Positions 22,114 through 28,432 of a stretch of DNA of 64,000 nucleotides are shown here, in pieces (the stretch's first letter is position 1; each line of letters opens with the position of its first letter). The stretch is from contig NZ_AVPI01000019.1 in NCBI RefSeq assembly GCF_000768675.1, forward strand, positions 1 to 64,000. Direction: 5' to 3'. The DNA is from Knoellia flava TL1 (GTDB taxonomy: Bacteria > Actinomycetota > Actinomycetes > Actinomycetales > Dermatophilaceae). A model generated the notes under the pieces. That model was not told where the DNA came from. It saw nothing but the letters and a program-made list of their open reading frames with translations, and did not search any database. The position numbers were made by a program, and so were the translations under genes.

Positions 22114-23007
22114 TCAGTTCCTCAGTTCCTCGGGCAGGAGCTCGTCCTCGCCGGGCACGAGGCCCGAGCCGTCGCGGTTCAGTTCGGTGCCGAGCATGCC
22201 GGTCTGGCCCCGCGACTTGAGGTCGGCGATGTGCGCGTCGTACTCGGCGCGCGGGACGACCTTGACGTTGAACAGCATCTGGGAGTGGTAGGCGCCGCAG
22301 AGCTCGGCGCACTTGCCCTTGAAGGTCCCCTCCTCGGTCGGCACGACCTGGAACTTGTTGACCTTGCCCGGGATCATGTCGAGCTTCTGGAGGAACTGCG
22401 GCACCCAGAAGGAGTGGATGACGTCGCGCGACGTGAGGACGAACTCGACGCGCTCGTCGACGGGGAGGTAGAGCGTCGGGATCGTCTCCTCGGCGCCCGG
22501 CTGGCCGGTCATGATGGCCTGCGTGCCGACCTCGTGGACGTCGTCCTCGACGTAGTTGAAGTCCCAGGACCACTGCTTGCCGACGACGTTGACCGTCACG
22601 GCGGGGTCCTCGCTCGTGTCGAGCAGGGCGGTCTGGTCCTTGGCGGTGAAGAAGAAGAAGGTCGCGACCATGAAGATCGGGACGATCGTGTAGAGGATCT
22701 CGAGCGGCACGTTGTAGCGCAGCTGGACCGGGAGCTCGTTGTCGTCACGGCGACGGCGGTAGGCCACGACGCACCACGCGGTGAGTCCCCAGACGAGGAC
22801 GCCGACGGCGAGGCACGCGATCCACGCGCCGATCCACAGGTCACGCACGCGCTCGGAGTTCTCGGTGACGCCGCGGGGCAGGAAGCCGTCCTCGAACTTG
22901 CCCAGCTCACACCCGCTGAGCGCCACCATCGCGCCCACGGCCAGGACGGACCAGAGGGCCAGTCGCCGACCCCGGGAACGGGGGTTGAGTTGGTCGTGCT
23001 GAGGCAC
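22114..23007 (-). CDS. ctaC: Cytochrome c oxidase subunit II (lipoprotein)
   Basis: 297 aa from the GTG at 23007, which has CAGGAGG eight nucleotides upstream; in-frame codons before it look like leader. The signal ends in a lipobox (LSGC), so the mature protein is lipid-anchored. Two transmembrane helices follow, then the periplasm-facing cupredoxin domain with the CuA ligands in [12 protein letters not shown]. It receives electrons from QcrC. It is the first gene of ctaC-ctaD-ctaF and diverges from the desulfurase-like gene with about 90 nt between the starts. Confidence 0.95.
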
Positions 23008-23087
23008 CGCGGCACCCTCCTGCGTCGTCTGCTGGAACACGACAAACAGTAGTGCATGCTGCGGAACTCGCCGGGGACGGGGGGCGT

Positions 23088-23099: not shown

Positions 23100-24227
23100 G
23101 TGCTGGACGCCACCCGGAGCCCTCTCCACCCCGCTGCCCGGGAGACCCTTCTCGCCGCCCTCGACGCCGGCTGGGCCGACCCCCGGCGCCTGCACCGCGA
23201 GGGGCGTCAGGCGCGCCTCCTGCTCGACCGGGCCCGCGAGAGCATCGCCGCCTCCCTCGGCGCGCGTCCCGACGAGGTCTCCTTTCACCCGAGCGGCACA
23301 CACGCGCTGCGCACGGGCGTGGCCGGGCTCCGCCACGCCCGGCGGAGGGCCGCCTCGCGCATGCTCACGTCGGCCGTCGACCGGGCCGTCCTGCTCCTCG
23401 ATGCCCACGAGGCCGACCCCGACGCCGAGCCCCTGCCCGTCGACCGTCTGGGTCGGCTCTCCCCCGCGACCCTCCGCGAGGCGCTTGTGACCCACCCAGC
23501 GGCCCTCGTCGCGGTCCAGCACGCCAACGGTGAGGTCGGGACCGTCCAGCCCGTGACCGACCTCCATGACGTATGCCGTGCGGCCGACCTCCCGCTGCTC
23601 GTCGACGGCACCGCGTCGCTGGGCCGGATGGAGAGCCCGGGGGCGTGGGACGCGCTCGCCGGCGACGCGGCCACCGTCGCCGGTCCCCCGGTCGGCGTCC
23701 TCGCCGTGCGGACCGGCACCCGCTTCGACCTGCCGGGTCCGCGGTGGGAGCCCGAGCACGGCCGCGAGGTGGAGGACCCGTGGGTGCCGCTCGTGCTCGC
23801 CGCCGCCGAGGCCTGGCAGCACGCCGTTCACGAGCGGCCCGCGGAGGAAGCCGCCGCCAGGGCGCTCACCGACCGCATCCGCGCTGCCGCGGCGGCCGTG
23901 CCCGACGTCGAGGTGGCCGGCGACCCCGCCGACCGGCTCCCGCACGTCGTCACCTTCAGCGCGCTCTACGTCGACGGCGAGAGCATCGTCGGCGAGCTCG
24001 ACCGGCGTGGGATCGAGGTGGCCTCGGGATCGGCCTGCACGTCGAGCCGGCTCGAGCCCAGCCACGTCCTCGCCGCCATGGGCGCGCTCACCCACGGCAA
24101 CGTCCGGGTCACCCTGCCGCTGGCCGCCGTCCGGTCCGAGCGTGCCGACGACGTCGACGCTCTGTGCCGCGAGCTCCCGACGGTGGTCGCAGAGCTGCGG
24201 GCCCGCCTCGGGGTCGACGACCTGTGA
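23100..24227 (+). CDS. Cysteine-desulfurase-like (NifS/IscS fold) protein lacking the PLP lysine
   Basis: 375 aa, a full-length class V aminotransferase fold. The catalytic cysteine loop is kept (ASGSACTSSRLEPSHVLAAMG). Three PLP-site residues are not: the Schiff-base Lys expected in the SAHK-GGP segment is replaced (DAATVAGPPVGVLAVR, Lys to Val), the ring-stacking His of the SAVEH motif is Arg (SAVDRAVLL), and the Gln of VDGVQ is Ala (VDGTASLG); the Asp of VDG is kept. As a classical desulfurase it should therefore be inactive. It overlaps by 4 nt with a TusA-like sulfur carrier, so a role as persulfide acceptor or scaffold is possible. It diverges from ctaC. Confidence 0.88.
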   Translation: MLDATRSPLHPAARETLLAALDAGWADPRRLHREGRQARLLLDRARESIAASLGARPDEVSFHPSGTHALRTGVAGLRHARRRAASRMLTSAVDRAVLLLDAHEADPDAEPLPVDRLGRLSPATLREALVTHPAALVAVQHANGEVGTVQPVTDLHDVCRAADLPLLVDGTASLGRMESPGAWDALAGDAATVAGPPVGVLAVRTGTRFDLPGPRWEPEHGREVEDPWVPLVLAAAEAWQHAVHERPAEEAAARALTDRIRAAAAAVPDVEVAGDPADRLPHVVTFSALYVDGESIVGELDRRGIEVASGSACTSSRLEPSHVLAAMGALTHGNVRVTLPLAAVRSERADDVDALCRELPTVVAELRARLGVDDL

Positions 24228-24448
24228 ACGAGAGCCCTGACCTCGACGCGCGCGGCCTCCTGTGCCCGCTGCCCGTCATCCGGCTCGCCCGCCTCGCCCG
24301 CGACCTGCCGCCGGGCTCCGCACTGCTCGTCCTCGCCGACGACCCGGCCGCCGAGTCGGACATCCCCGCCTGGGCGCGGATGCGCGGACACGAGGTGAGG
24401 CTCGAGCGCAGGGGTGGGCACACGGCATACACGGTCGTGCTGGGGTGA
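24224..24448 (+). CDS. TusA-family sulfurtransferase/sulfur carrier
   Basis: 74 aa. The N-terminal signature LDARGLLCPLPVIRLARL contains the CPxP motif whose Cys carries persulfide in TusA proteins. The GTG start overlaps the stop of the desulfurase-like gene (GTGA), suggesting a fixed 1:1 partnership. It ends 7 nt before the convergent aat gene. Sulfur relay for tRNA thiolation, molybdopterin or other targets are options; nothing nearby decides. Confidence 0.9.
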   Translation: MNESPDLDARGLLCPLPVIRLARLARDLPPGSALLVLADDPAAESDIPAWARMRGHEVRLERRGGHTAYTVVLG

Positions 24449-24455
24449 GCTCCGC

Positions 24456-25142
24456 TCAGCAGAAGCGGAGGTCCGGGGCCTCGAGGGCCACGGCGAGCGC
24501 CTCGAGGTAGCGCCGGCGCGGCCACTCGACGACGCCGAGGCGCTCGAGGTGGCCGGTGCTCCACTGGACGTCGATGATCCGGCGCTCGTCGCCGTCGGCA
24601 CGCACCAGGTCGACGAGCGCGGCGAGGGCCACCTTCGACGCGTCGCGCTCGAGGTGGAACATCGACTCGCCCGCGAAGAGGCCGCCGACCGCGATGCCGT
24701 AGAGCCCGCCGACGAGGCGGCCGTCGAGCCACGTCTCGACACTGTGCGCCCAGCCGAGGCGGTGCATCTCGGTGTATGCCGTGACGATCTCGTCGGTGAT
24801 CCAGCGTCCCACGCGCTCGGGGTCGCCACACAGGCGCATGACGTCGGGAAAGGCCGTGTCGACCCGGACCTCGAACCGCGACCGGGCCTTGCGCAGCGAG
24901 CGGCTCTCGCGGAAGTTCGCGGGCACGAGGACGCCGCGCGGCTCAGGCGACCACCAGCCGATGGGGCGCGCACCGTGGTCGCCGAGGCCCATCGGGAAGA
25001 GGCCGACGCGGTAGGCAGCGAGCAGCGTCCCGGGCGAGAGGTCGGCCCCGGCGGCGACGAGGTCCTCGTCCTCGGTGGGACGCAGTCGGCCCATCGCCCA
25101 CTCACCGGGTGGCGGCTCGACCGGCGGGAAGGGGACGGTCAC
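24456..25142 (-). CDS. aat: Leucyl/phenylalanyl-tRNA-protein transferase
   Basis: 228 aa, normal length. It adds Leu or Phe to N-terminal Arg/Lys of proteins, creating an N-degron for ClpS/ClpAP. Conserved segments: GLFPMG, IGWWSPEPRGVL, GWAHSVETWLDGRLVGGLYGIAVGGLFAGESMF and DVQWSTGHLERLG. The start is the GTG at 25142, 10 nt after the PfkB-kinase stop, so the pair is probably co-transcribed. Confidence 0.94.
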   Translation of the reverse strand: MTVPFPPVEPPPGEWAMGRLRPTEDEDLVAAGADLSPGTLLAAYRVGLFPMGLGDHGARPIGWWSPEPRGVLVPANFRESRSLRKARSRFEVRVDTAFPDVMRLCGDPERVGRWITDEIVTAYTEMHRLGWAHSVETWLDGRLVGGLYGIAVGGLFAGESMFHLERDASKVALAALVDLVRADGDERRIIDVQWSTGHLERLGVVEWPRRRYLEALAVALEAPDLRFC

Positions 25143-25152
25143 GACCGCGGCA

Positions 25153-26133
25153 TCAGGGCCGGGCGCAGGTGATGTGCGGCTCGACGTCGGCGGCCGAGTC
25201 GTCACCGTAGGCCTGTGCGAGCCGGTCGAGGAACGCCGACTTGTCGAGGACGTACTCCTGGGTGCCGACGGTCTCGAGGACGTAGGTGGCGAGGAGGGAG
25301 CCGATCTCGGCGCAGCGACGGTGCTCGAGGCCGGCGGACAGCCCGGTGAGGAAGCCGGCGCGGAAGGCGTCGCCGACACCCGTCGGGTCGGCGCGGCGGG
25401 CCTCGAGGGCGATCGGCACCTCGATCGGCTCCTCACCGCGGGTCTTGATGACCGCCCCGTCCTTGCCCTTGGTGATGACCCGGGTCGTCACCTGGGCGTC
25501 GATGTCGGCCTCGCTCCAGCCGGTCTTCTGCTCGGTGAGGTGGGCCTCGTACTCGTTGGTGAAGAGGTAGTCCGCGCCCTCGATGAGCGTGCGGATGAAG
25601 GGGCCGTCGGCGAAGGCGAGCTGCTGCGACGGGTCGGCGACGAAGGTGAGCCCGCGGGTCCGGCACTCGTCGGTGTGCCGCAGCATCGCCTCGGGGTCGT
25701 TGGCCCCGATGAGGACGAGGTCGAGACCCGTGGCCGCGATCGGGCCGAGCTCGATGAGCCGTGCCTCGCTCATGGCGCCGGCATAGAAGGTCGCCATCTG
25801 CGCCATGTCGTCGTCGGTCGTGCACACGAAGCGGGCGGTGTGCTTGGAGTCCGAGATGTGCACGTGGTCGCAGTCGACACCGTGCCGGGTCAGCCAGCTG
25901 CGGTAGTCGGCGAAGTCCTCGCCCGCGGCGCCGACGAGGATCGGGCGCTGACCGAGGGCGGCCATGCCGAAGCAGATGTTGCCGGCGACTCCCCCACGGC
26001 GGATCTCGAGCGAGTCGGCGAGGAACGACACCGAGATCTTGTCGAGCTGCTCGACGACGAGGGAGTCGGCGAACCGGCCCCTGAACGTCATGAGGTGGTC
26101 GGTCGCGATGGACCCGGTGACTGCGATACGCAC
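25153..26133 (-). CDS. PfkB-family carbohydrate kinase
   Basis: 326 aa. The ribokinase-fold signatures are present: RRGGVAGNICFGMAALG near residue 46 and the C-terminal DPTGVGDAFRAGFLTG with the catalytic Asp (GVGD form of the GAGD anion hole). Homologues next to ctaC/erpA in actinobacteria are annotated as adenosine kinase-like or sugar kinase; the substrate (adenosine, ribose, fructose 1-phosphate) is not decidable by eye. It is transcribed with aat. Confidence 0.9.
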   Translation of the reverse strand: MRIAVTGSIATDHLMTFRGRFADSLVVEQLDKISVSFLADSLEIRRGGVAGNICFGMAALGQRPILVGAAGEDFADYRSWLTRHGVDCDHVHISDSKHTARFVCTTDDDMAQMATFYAGAMSEARLIELGPIAATGLDLVLIGANDPEAMLRHTDECRTRGLTFVADPSQQLAFADGPFIRTLIEGADYLFTNEYEAHLTEQKTGWSEADIDAQVTTRVITKGKDGAVIKTRGEEPIEVPIALEARRADPTGVGDAFRAGFLTGLSAGLEHRRCAEIGSLLATYVLETVGTQEYVLDKSAFLDRLAQAYGDDSAADVEPHITCARP

Positions 26134-28051: not shown

Positions 28052-28432
28052 TCAGCTGAAGGAGTCGCCGCAGGCGCACGAGCTGCCCGCGTTGGGGTTG
28101 TCGATGGTGAAGCCCTGCTTCTCGATGGTGTCGGAGAAGTCGATCGTGGCGCCCTCGAGGTAGGGGCTGCTCATCCGGTCGACGACGACCTCGACACCGT
28201 CGAAGTCGCGCACGAGGTCACCGTCGAGGGAGCGCTCGTCGAAGTAGAGCTGGTAGATGAGGCCCGAGCAGCCACCGGGCTGCACGCCCACGCGCAGGCG
28301 GAGGTCGTCGCGACCCTCCTGCTCGAGGAGGGACTTGACCTTGCCGGCCGCGAGGTCGGTGAGGAGGACGCCGTGCGCCGGGGTCGCCTCGGTCTCGGTC
28401 GTGGTCTCGGGCTTGGTGTCGAGCTCGCTCAT
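28052..28432 (-). CDS. erpA: Iron-sulfur cluster insertion protein (A-type carrier)
   Basis: 126 aa. The A-type carrier cysteines are present: GVQPGGCSGLIYQLYF and the C-terminal GSSCACGDSF (CxC). A ~20-residue Thr/Glu-rich N-terminal tail precedes the fold. It transfers Fe-S clusters to apoproteins; NadA, LipA and QcrA, all encoded in this window, are plausible clients (inference). The ATG at 28432 has CAGGAGT upstream. Confidence 0.93.
   Translation of the reverse strand: MSELDTKPETTTETEATPAHGVLLTDLAAGKVKSLLEQEGRDDLRLRVGVQPGGCSGLIYQLYFDERSLDGDLVRDFDGVEVVVDRMSSPYLEGATIDFSDTIEKQGFTIDNPNAGSSCACGDSFS

Follow-up and report, generated by a model that had tools for sequence, protein, structure and literature searches.

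The window, a stretch of 64,000 nucleotides from Knoellia flava TL1 (contig NZ_AVPI01000019.1), carries a pair of genes coding for a NifS/IscS-like protein and a TusA-like carrier, situated next to the divergently oriented ctaC. Both frames, and the GTGA overlap between them, are located where the earlier note had put them; the NifS-like gene also has an in-frame GTG upstream, at 23052. The genes and features of the locus are:

22114..23010, minus strand: ctaC, aa3 oxidase subunit II, divergent and conserved neighbor (NF050117, 351.5 bits, cut-off 250)
23100..24227, plus strand: NifS/IscS-like protein of 375 aa lacking the Schiff-base Lys (PF00266, 89.1 bits, cut-off 21.5)
23382..23384, plus strand: Arg95 at the PLP-stacking His site (alignment)
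23613..23615, plus strand: Ala172 at the Gln site, IscS Gln183 (alignment)
23673..23675, plus strand: Thr192 (ACC) at the Schiff-base Lys site, IscS Lys206 (alignment)
24036..24038, plus strand: Cys313 (TGC) at the persulfide-carrying Cys site, IscS Cys328 (alignment)
24224..24448, plus strand: TusA-like carrier of 74 aa with a CPLP motif, overlapping the preceding gene (PF01206, 68.1 bits, cut-off 28.6)
24459..25130, minus strand: aat, leucyl/phenylalanyl-tRNA-protein transferase (TIGR00667, 171.5 bits, cut-off 143.55)
25156..26133, minus strand: sugar/nucleoside kinase-like gene, here termed "pfkB", conserved neighbor (matches to several kinase models, none reaching its cut-off)
28064..28363, minus strand: HesB/ErpA-type Fe-S carrier domain (PF01521), the sole such match in the genome
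31590..32828, plus strand: gene that we take, by eye, to code for a NadA-like quinolinate synthase, presumably with an Fe-S cluster; the HesB gene lies a few kb away

The active-site positions were mapped by aligning the NifS-like protein of the window to Lys-bearing IscS paralogs and orthologs; the IscS residue numbers and roles are partly background knowledge and partly drawn from passages of PMC9978102. Several defining elements of a cysteine desulfurase are present, namely the class-V aminotransferase fold (PF00266 above its cut-off and the predicted structure), the Asp directed to the pyridine N (Asp169), the Asn (Asn143), and the catalytic Cys loop, where Cys313 lies within SGSAC and aligns with the mobile Cys, in line with the earlier note, which had held this residue to be kept. 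Arg336 and Thr67, the third phosphate-site residue, are likewise retained. The Schiff-base Lys, the stacking His, and the pyridine-side Gln are all missing. The reported loss of the PLP Lys stands, but its replacement by Val does not: the site is occupied by Thr192, with Val193 one residue later. The reported substitutions of the stacking His by Arg and of the Gln by Ala agree with the alignment (Arg95 and Ala172), whereas the tally of three altered cofactor residues was too low, since the phosphate-site Ser and His are also changed, to Asp189 and Ala191, respectively. As the entire chain contains zero lysines, a displaced Lys filling the vacated site is impossible in this protein. The best NCBIfam NifS equivalog model reaches 188.9 bits against a cut-off of 530.75; the Lys-bearing IscS-like paralog of the same genome (L003) also remains under that cut-off (361.4 bits).

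An AlphaFold2 model of the window protein (mean pLDDT 91.4, pTM 0.91) predicts an intact IscS-type fold, with the sole segment of at least three residues having a pLDDT below 50 corresponding to the Cys loop (residues 312-315). A Foldseek search with this model recovered Mycobacterium tuberculosis IscS as the top match (TM 0.87), along with entries of Archaeoglobus fulgidus IscS (TM 0.86-0.88). The model of a natural Lys-less fusion to TusA (L064) has a comparable pLDDT of 89.9 and pTM of 0.89.

We assembled homologs from relatives, from contigs of named genomes, and from broader samples across the phylum, obtaining 242 proteins (241 loci and the window), of which 212 are distinct. This sample is not a census and leans to close relatives: one search contributed the best 80 of its 581 confirmed places, further searches contributed the loci of no more than 30 matches apiece, and additional places were picked by hand. 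One locus (L047) was left out as an N-terminal fragment, and another (L048) ends at its contig end with the Cys site not covered. The Schiff-base Lys is present in 76 of the 212 distinct sampled proteins and absent from 136, in which its site is occupied by Asp (56), Ser (54), Thr (11), Ala (10), Gly (2), or Leu, Val, or His (one each). The Cys313 site is a Cys in 76/76 Lys-bearing proteins and in 135/135 Lys-less proteins covering it (window counted). The stacking His is found in all 76 Lys-bearing proteins, and the 136 Lys-less ones have Arg (70), His (54), Gln (8), or another residue or a gap (4) at that site. The Gln is found in 51/76 Lys-bearing vs 0/136 Lys-less proteins; its site is Ala in each of the 21 Lys-bearing Nocardioidaceae, and four other Lys-bearing rows are also without it. 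Within the phosphate site, the Lys-less proteins show Asp in place of Ser in 110/136 cases and mostly Ala, Arg, or Gly in place of His; Thr67 is retained in 39/136, the window among them. Zero lysines are seen over the matched stretch in 99/136 Lys-less sequences, and no alignment column has a Lys in more than 5 of the 136, so that no relocated Lys takes over the site. The earlier argument against a sequencing error is borne out by 135 further distinct proteins devoid of the Lys; with the window included, these 136 rule out chance or sequencing error.

All 105 Lys-less loci with group codes belong to the window's order, which is absent among the Lys-bearing loci, and none of the sequences fetched from this order keeps the Lys, where the earlier note had allowed that relatives might all retain SAHK. 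The other Lys-less proteins come from Intrasporangiaceae (14), Cellulomonadaceae (8), Promicromonosporaceae (4), Jonesiaceae (1), Nocardioides (1), the window, and two metagenome-assembled genomes (MAGs) lacking a family label. A copy on contig JAKBFW010000005.1 (L119), from a MAG labeled Proteobacteria, groups with those of Cellulomonadaceae and is adjoined by ctaD, ctaC, and tusA; this MAG is probably a mislabeled or mixed bin. The Lys-bearing orthologs, among which those of Streptomyces, Nonomuraea, Nocardioides, and Micromonosporaceae retain the Lys, are distributed across Streptomycetaceae, Streptosporangiaceae, Micromonosporaceae, Nocardioidaceae, and more distant members of the phylum. 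Four other full-length class-V paralogs in the window's own genome (L001-L004) also retain it.

For the phylogenetic analysis, 148 of 217 rows (the 212 proteins and five IscS outgroup sequences) remained after filtering at 80% identity and requiring at least 300 residues, and the active-site columns were blanked. In the resulting tree, which is of a "quick" type computed without bootstraps and has two rows on long branches, 102 of the 103 Lys-less rows form a single clade (SH-aLRT 97) that is sister to the Lys-bearing Nocardioidaceae. The remaining row, from Nocardioides sp. AX2bis (L097), has a His at the Lys site and represents a separate loss. On this topology, a single loss of the Lys took place deep in the window's order, with one additional, separate loss in Nocardioides. 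Loss of the Gln probably preceded that of the Lys because 21/21 Lys-bearing Nocardioidaceae already have Ala at its site. This Ala puts the desulfurase activity of the Lys-bearing Nocardioidaceae orthologs themselves (e.g., L082 and L113) in doubt.

Parsimony reconstruction within the Lys-less clade (total branch length 38.2) gave a mean of 20.8 changes per site and 17 changes in the Lys column, with zero changes at Cys313, Asn143, Asp169, His282, Gly310, Gly333, and Arg336. The unchanged sites amount to 22/375, eight of which lie at the two ends of the protein (the first four positions and the last few), where presumably few rows are filled. Codon-model dN/dS values for the Lys-less gene are 0.055 in the window's genus (nine sequences) and 0.064 in a second group (eight sequences), and those for its Lys-bearing counterparts are 0.072 in Streptomyces, 0.042 in Nocardioides, and 0.059 in Nonomuraea; as synonymous sites in these GC-rich genes are likely near saturation, the values serve as a comparison only. 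Neighboring genes in the same groups range from 0.011 to 0.135, the estimates for aat coming from two Lys-less groups only. By this measure, the Lys-less gene is under purifying selection like that acting on its Lys-bearing relatives.

The TusA-like protein of the window is the sole PF01206 match in its genome at E ≤ 0.001, and it contains a TusA domain with the CPxP cysteine, though it misses the NCBIfam TusA equivalog model (49.5 bits vs a cut-off of 78). Coupling of the NifS-like protein to TusA, as proposed in the earlier note, is a recurrent feature: among the rows with enough flank to be scored (134/136 Lys-less and 76/76 Lys-bearing), a TusA gene is adjacent in 106/134 Lys-less loci, three of them fused (L035, L064, and L225; a fourth, L209, runs off its stretch), and in 70/76 Lys-bearing loci, 19 of them fused. 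The CPxP cysteine is present in the adjacent TusA of 105/106 Lys-less and 70/70 Lys-bearing loci (the window's CPLP uncounted). The sole exception is L235, whose Cys loop is remodeled too. It is one of two diverged NifS-like copies (L234 and L235) in genome G719 of family f10; its loop is Cys-rich, and a joint decay of L235 and its TusA, or a new function for them, is possible.

The 28/134 Lys-less loci devoid of a neighboring TusA, such as that of Janibacter limosus (L083), indicate that TusA is not the only partner. Cys313 is kept in all 28, and Thr314, Ser316, Leu318, and His332, which follow the Cys, are less conserved in these loci; as the rows concerned fall in few clades, this apparent loosening of the post-Cys stretch in the alignment is suggestive only. 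In family f10, a TusA domain is found elsewhere in nine of 12 searched genomes whose Lys-less locus has no adjacent TusA, within an open frame of 833-911 residues, and no TusA match was detected in the other three (G630, G654, and G680). Frames of this kind were noted in G056, G616, G776, G867, G875, G891, G850, G642, G719, and G074, and their length suggests a large TusA-containing fusion protein. Ten g38 and six f9 genomes without an adjacent TusA yielded only weak TusA matches (E 2.4e-8 or weaker), and genome G611, which has a Lys-less locus of this type, yielded no TusA match.

With respect to the wider neighborhood, a divergent ctaC is found in 130/133 Lys-less and 59/72 Lys-bearing loci (counting rows with enough flank, 133/136 and 72/76, respectively), the 13 Lys-bearing loci without it being from distant members of the phylum. 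The placement beside ctaC pointed out in the earlier note is thus real, but it carries little weight as a functional clue because the closer Lys-bearing relatives have ctaC too. The NifS-like gene is recovered at E ≤ 1e-100 from 102/396 genomes sampled from the order and from 90/186 genomes of the window's family, and is accordingly dispensable for many relatives. In 20 family genomes without it, tblastn (E ≤ 1e-3) found no trace of the NifS-like gene or tusA within 1.5 kb of ctaC, with aat beside ctaC in 19 of the 20; 17 of these genomes have no TusA match anywhere, indicating that members of this family without the NifS-like protein seldom have TusA. Among loci for which 6 kb or more is available on the relevant side, an A-type Fe-S carrier gene is found nearby in 38/38 Lys-bearing and 28/29 Lys-less cases. 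We rejected this HesB/ErpA neighborhood as a functional clue: the linkage is real, but the HesB gene is also no more than about 6 kb from ctaC in 19 of the 20 genomes lacking the pair, the two genes being on different contigs in the 20th. We also rejected a link to sulfuration of the molybdenum cofactor/formate dehydrogenase, as FdhD (42/45) and MoaE (45/45) occur in family genomes whether or not these carry the NifS-like gene, with no correlation.

The replaced cofactor residues make it very likely, as judged from the alignments, that PLP-dependent desulfurase chemistry has been lost in these proteins, while the conservation of the Cys strongly implies that a Cys-dependent function has been retained. 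We somewhat favor the interpretation that the family derives from a desulfurase and now acts, independently of PLP, as a Cys-based persulfide relay or scaffold. Such a pseudo-desulfurase would preserve the IscS/NifS fold with the PLP chemistry gone and the mobile cysteine as its working residue: Cys313 might take sulfane sulfur from the genome's own IscS or SufS, both with the Lys, from a rhodanese, or from free polysulfide and pass it to the cysteine of TusA. A persulfide relay to TusA is plausible and our best single guess as opposed to a result; we infer the absence of desulfurase activity, the persulfide loading, and the direction of transfer. As Cys313 is kept in 28/28 Lys-less proteins without an adjacent TusA, transfer to TusA would not be the whole role. 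To a more specific scenario we accord a little less than even weight, namely an ancient, stepwise conversion of the whole clade to a PLP-free sulfur hub, wherein the Gln would have gone first (as already in Nocardioidaceae), then the Lys together with the greater part of the phosphate cup, leaving a dedicated relay that is loaded by other enzymes and feeds TusA or, where TusA has been lost, another acceptor. Three residues of the PLP/substrate pocket that do not change, Asp169, Asn143, and Arg336, do not seem obviously needed by a pure relay and, together with the approximately one-fifth of loci lacking a TusA neighbor, leave room for another partner or ligand.

One alternative is that, as in Archaeoglobus, the mobile Cys ligates a nascent Fe-S cluster or metal center on a scaffold, with no sulfur being moved. 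We regard this as unlikely, even though the best PDB sequence matches of the window protein are those of A. fulgidus IscS, the native form of which carries Asp in place of the Lys and Ala in place of the Gln, and which, according to passages of PMC7585200, supplies a Cys ligand to the [2Fe-2S] cluster on IscU. It would also account for the survival of the family without TusA, and the A-type Fe-S carrier gene near almost all loci of both kinds would fit; however, this linkage is unspecific, persisting in 19/20 relatives without the NifS-like gene, and the protein is coupled to the sulfur carrier TusA rather than to IscU. A role as a non-catalytic partner or regulator, which might set sulfur flow by forming a heterodimer with a genuine IscS or by capping TusA, would be compatible with the full predicted fold and with the Lys-bearing IscS-like and SufS paralogs of the same genome. 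Such a role would render the invariant Cys needless, the heterodimer is purely hypothetical, and the gene is missing in about half of the family genomes; hence, we consider it rather unlikely.

The invariance of Asp169, Asn143, and Arg336 in the clade and the retention of Thr67 in the window and part of the family raise the further alternative that PLP or another ligand is still used non-covalently, in a different reaction; in passages of PMC9978102, the K206A variant of Escherichia coli IscS is described as still holding some PLP. The Asp at the phosphate-site Ser position, the mostly Ala, Arg, or Gly at the phosphate-site His position, and the lack of any lysine in the majority of the sequences weigh against it and render it distinctly unlikely. 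Least probable by far is that the locus is what remains of a desulfurase-TusA pair in decay. Roughly one in two family genomes lacks the gene, internal TGA codons occur in G510 (one of 90 matches listed) and G654 (one of 103 matches listed), and L235 combines an altered Cys loop with a TusA devoid of CPxP. Nevertheless, the dN/dS values resemble those of Lys-bearing relatives, Cys313 shows no change within a Lys-less clade that extends over many families, and no remnants are seen at the 20 ctaC loci without the gene. The early stage of decay entertained in the earlier note is contradicted by a single deep loss of the Lys with purifying selection since, and the dN/dS and site-change counts likewise rule out a pseudogene.

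Sequence similarity makes these Lys-less genes resemble cysteine desulfurases; as a result, models of sulfur flow in the actinobacteria carrying them would count a desulfurase that is probably non-working. More generally, the family offers a natural experiment separating PLP-dependent persulfide making from its hand-on via the mobile Cys. The Lys-bearing and Lys-less orthologs share a locus and a TusA partner, and the sister Nocardioidaceae have lost one cofactor residue only, which makes the Cys loop as a stand-alone relay or ligand directly testable. The precedent that we found for a stand-alone role of the Cys loop is archaeal. A literature search (titles and abstract openings of the papers listed, with few subscription journals) did not recover a bacterial group of Lys-less, TusA-linked proteins, which is weak evidence for novelty.

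Among the closest known systems is this archaeal one, A. fulgidus IscS (PDB 4eb5, 4eb7, and 4hvk; D199K variant 4r5f), the chains of which are about 30% identical to the window protein. The alignment reveals in both a replaced Lys, an Ala at the Gln site, and a kept Cys; passages of PMC7585200 describe the Lys-to-Asp replacement as the reason why this enzyme lacks desulfurase activity, and Methanosarcina acetivorans IscS1 as likewise devoid of the Lys. The archaeal protein is partnered with IscU, whereas the window protein is bacterial, is partnered with TusA, has two phosphate-site residues altered, and belongs to a pattern conserved over an actinobacterial clade. The Lys-bearing desulfurase-TusA pairs and fusions of Streptomyces, Nonomuraea, Nocardioides, and Micromonosporaceae are orthologous by synteny and tree, with the ctaC locus and the TusA partner in common, but they keep the Lys and, except for Nocardioidaceae and the four other rows, the Gln. 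The own-genome paralogs L003 (IscS-like; below all NCBIfam cut-offs listed) and L001 (above the cut-off of the SufS model) are of the same superfamily and differ by a kept Lys, within SAHK and SGHK, respectively. In the E. coli IscS-TusA complex (PDB 3lvj), the fold is shared (TM 0.86-0.88), and passages of PMC2854127 place the two Cys sulfurs about 4 Å apart, with the Cys loop facing the TusA Cys, which provides the model for transfer. E. coli IscS differs in that it generates a persulfide itself, from cysteine, by means of PLP bound to Lys206, and desulfurase activity is absent from its K206A, H104Q, and Q183E variants according to passages of PMC9978102, these being the three positions at which the window protein has Thr192, Arg95, and Ala172.
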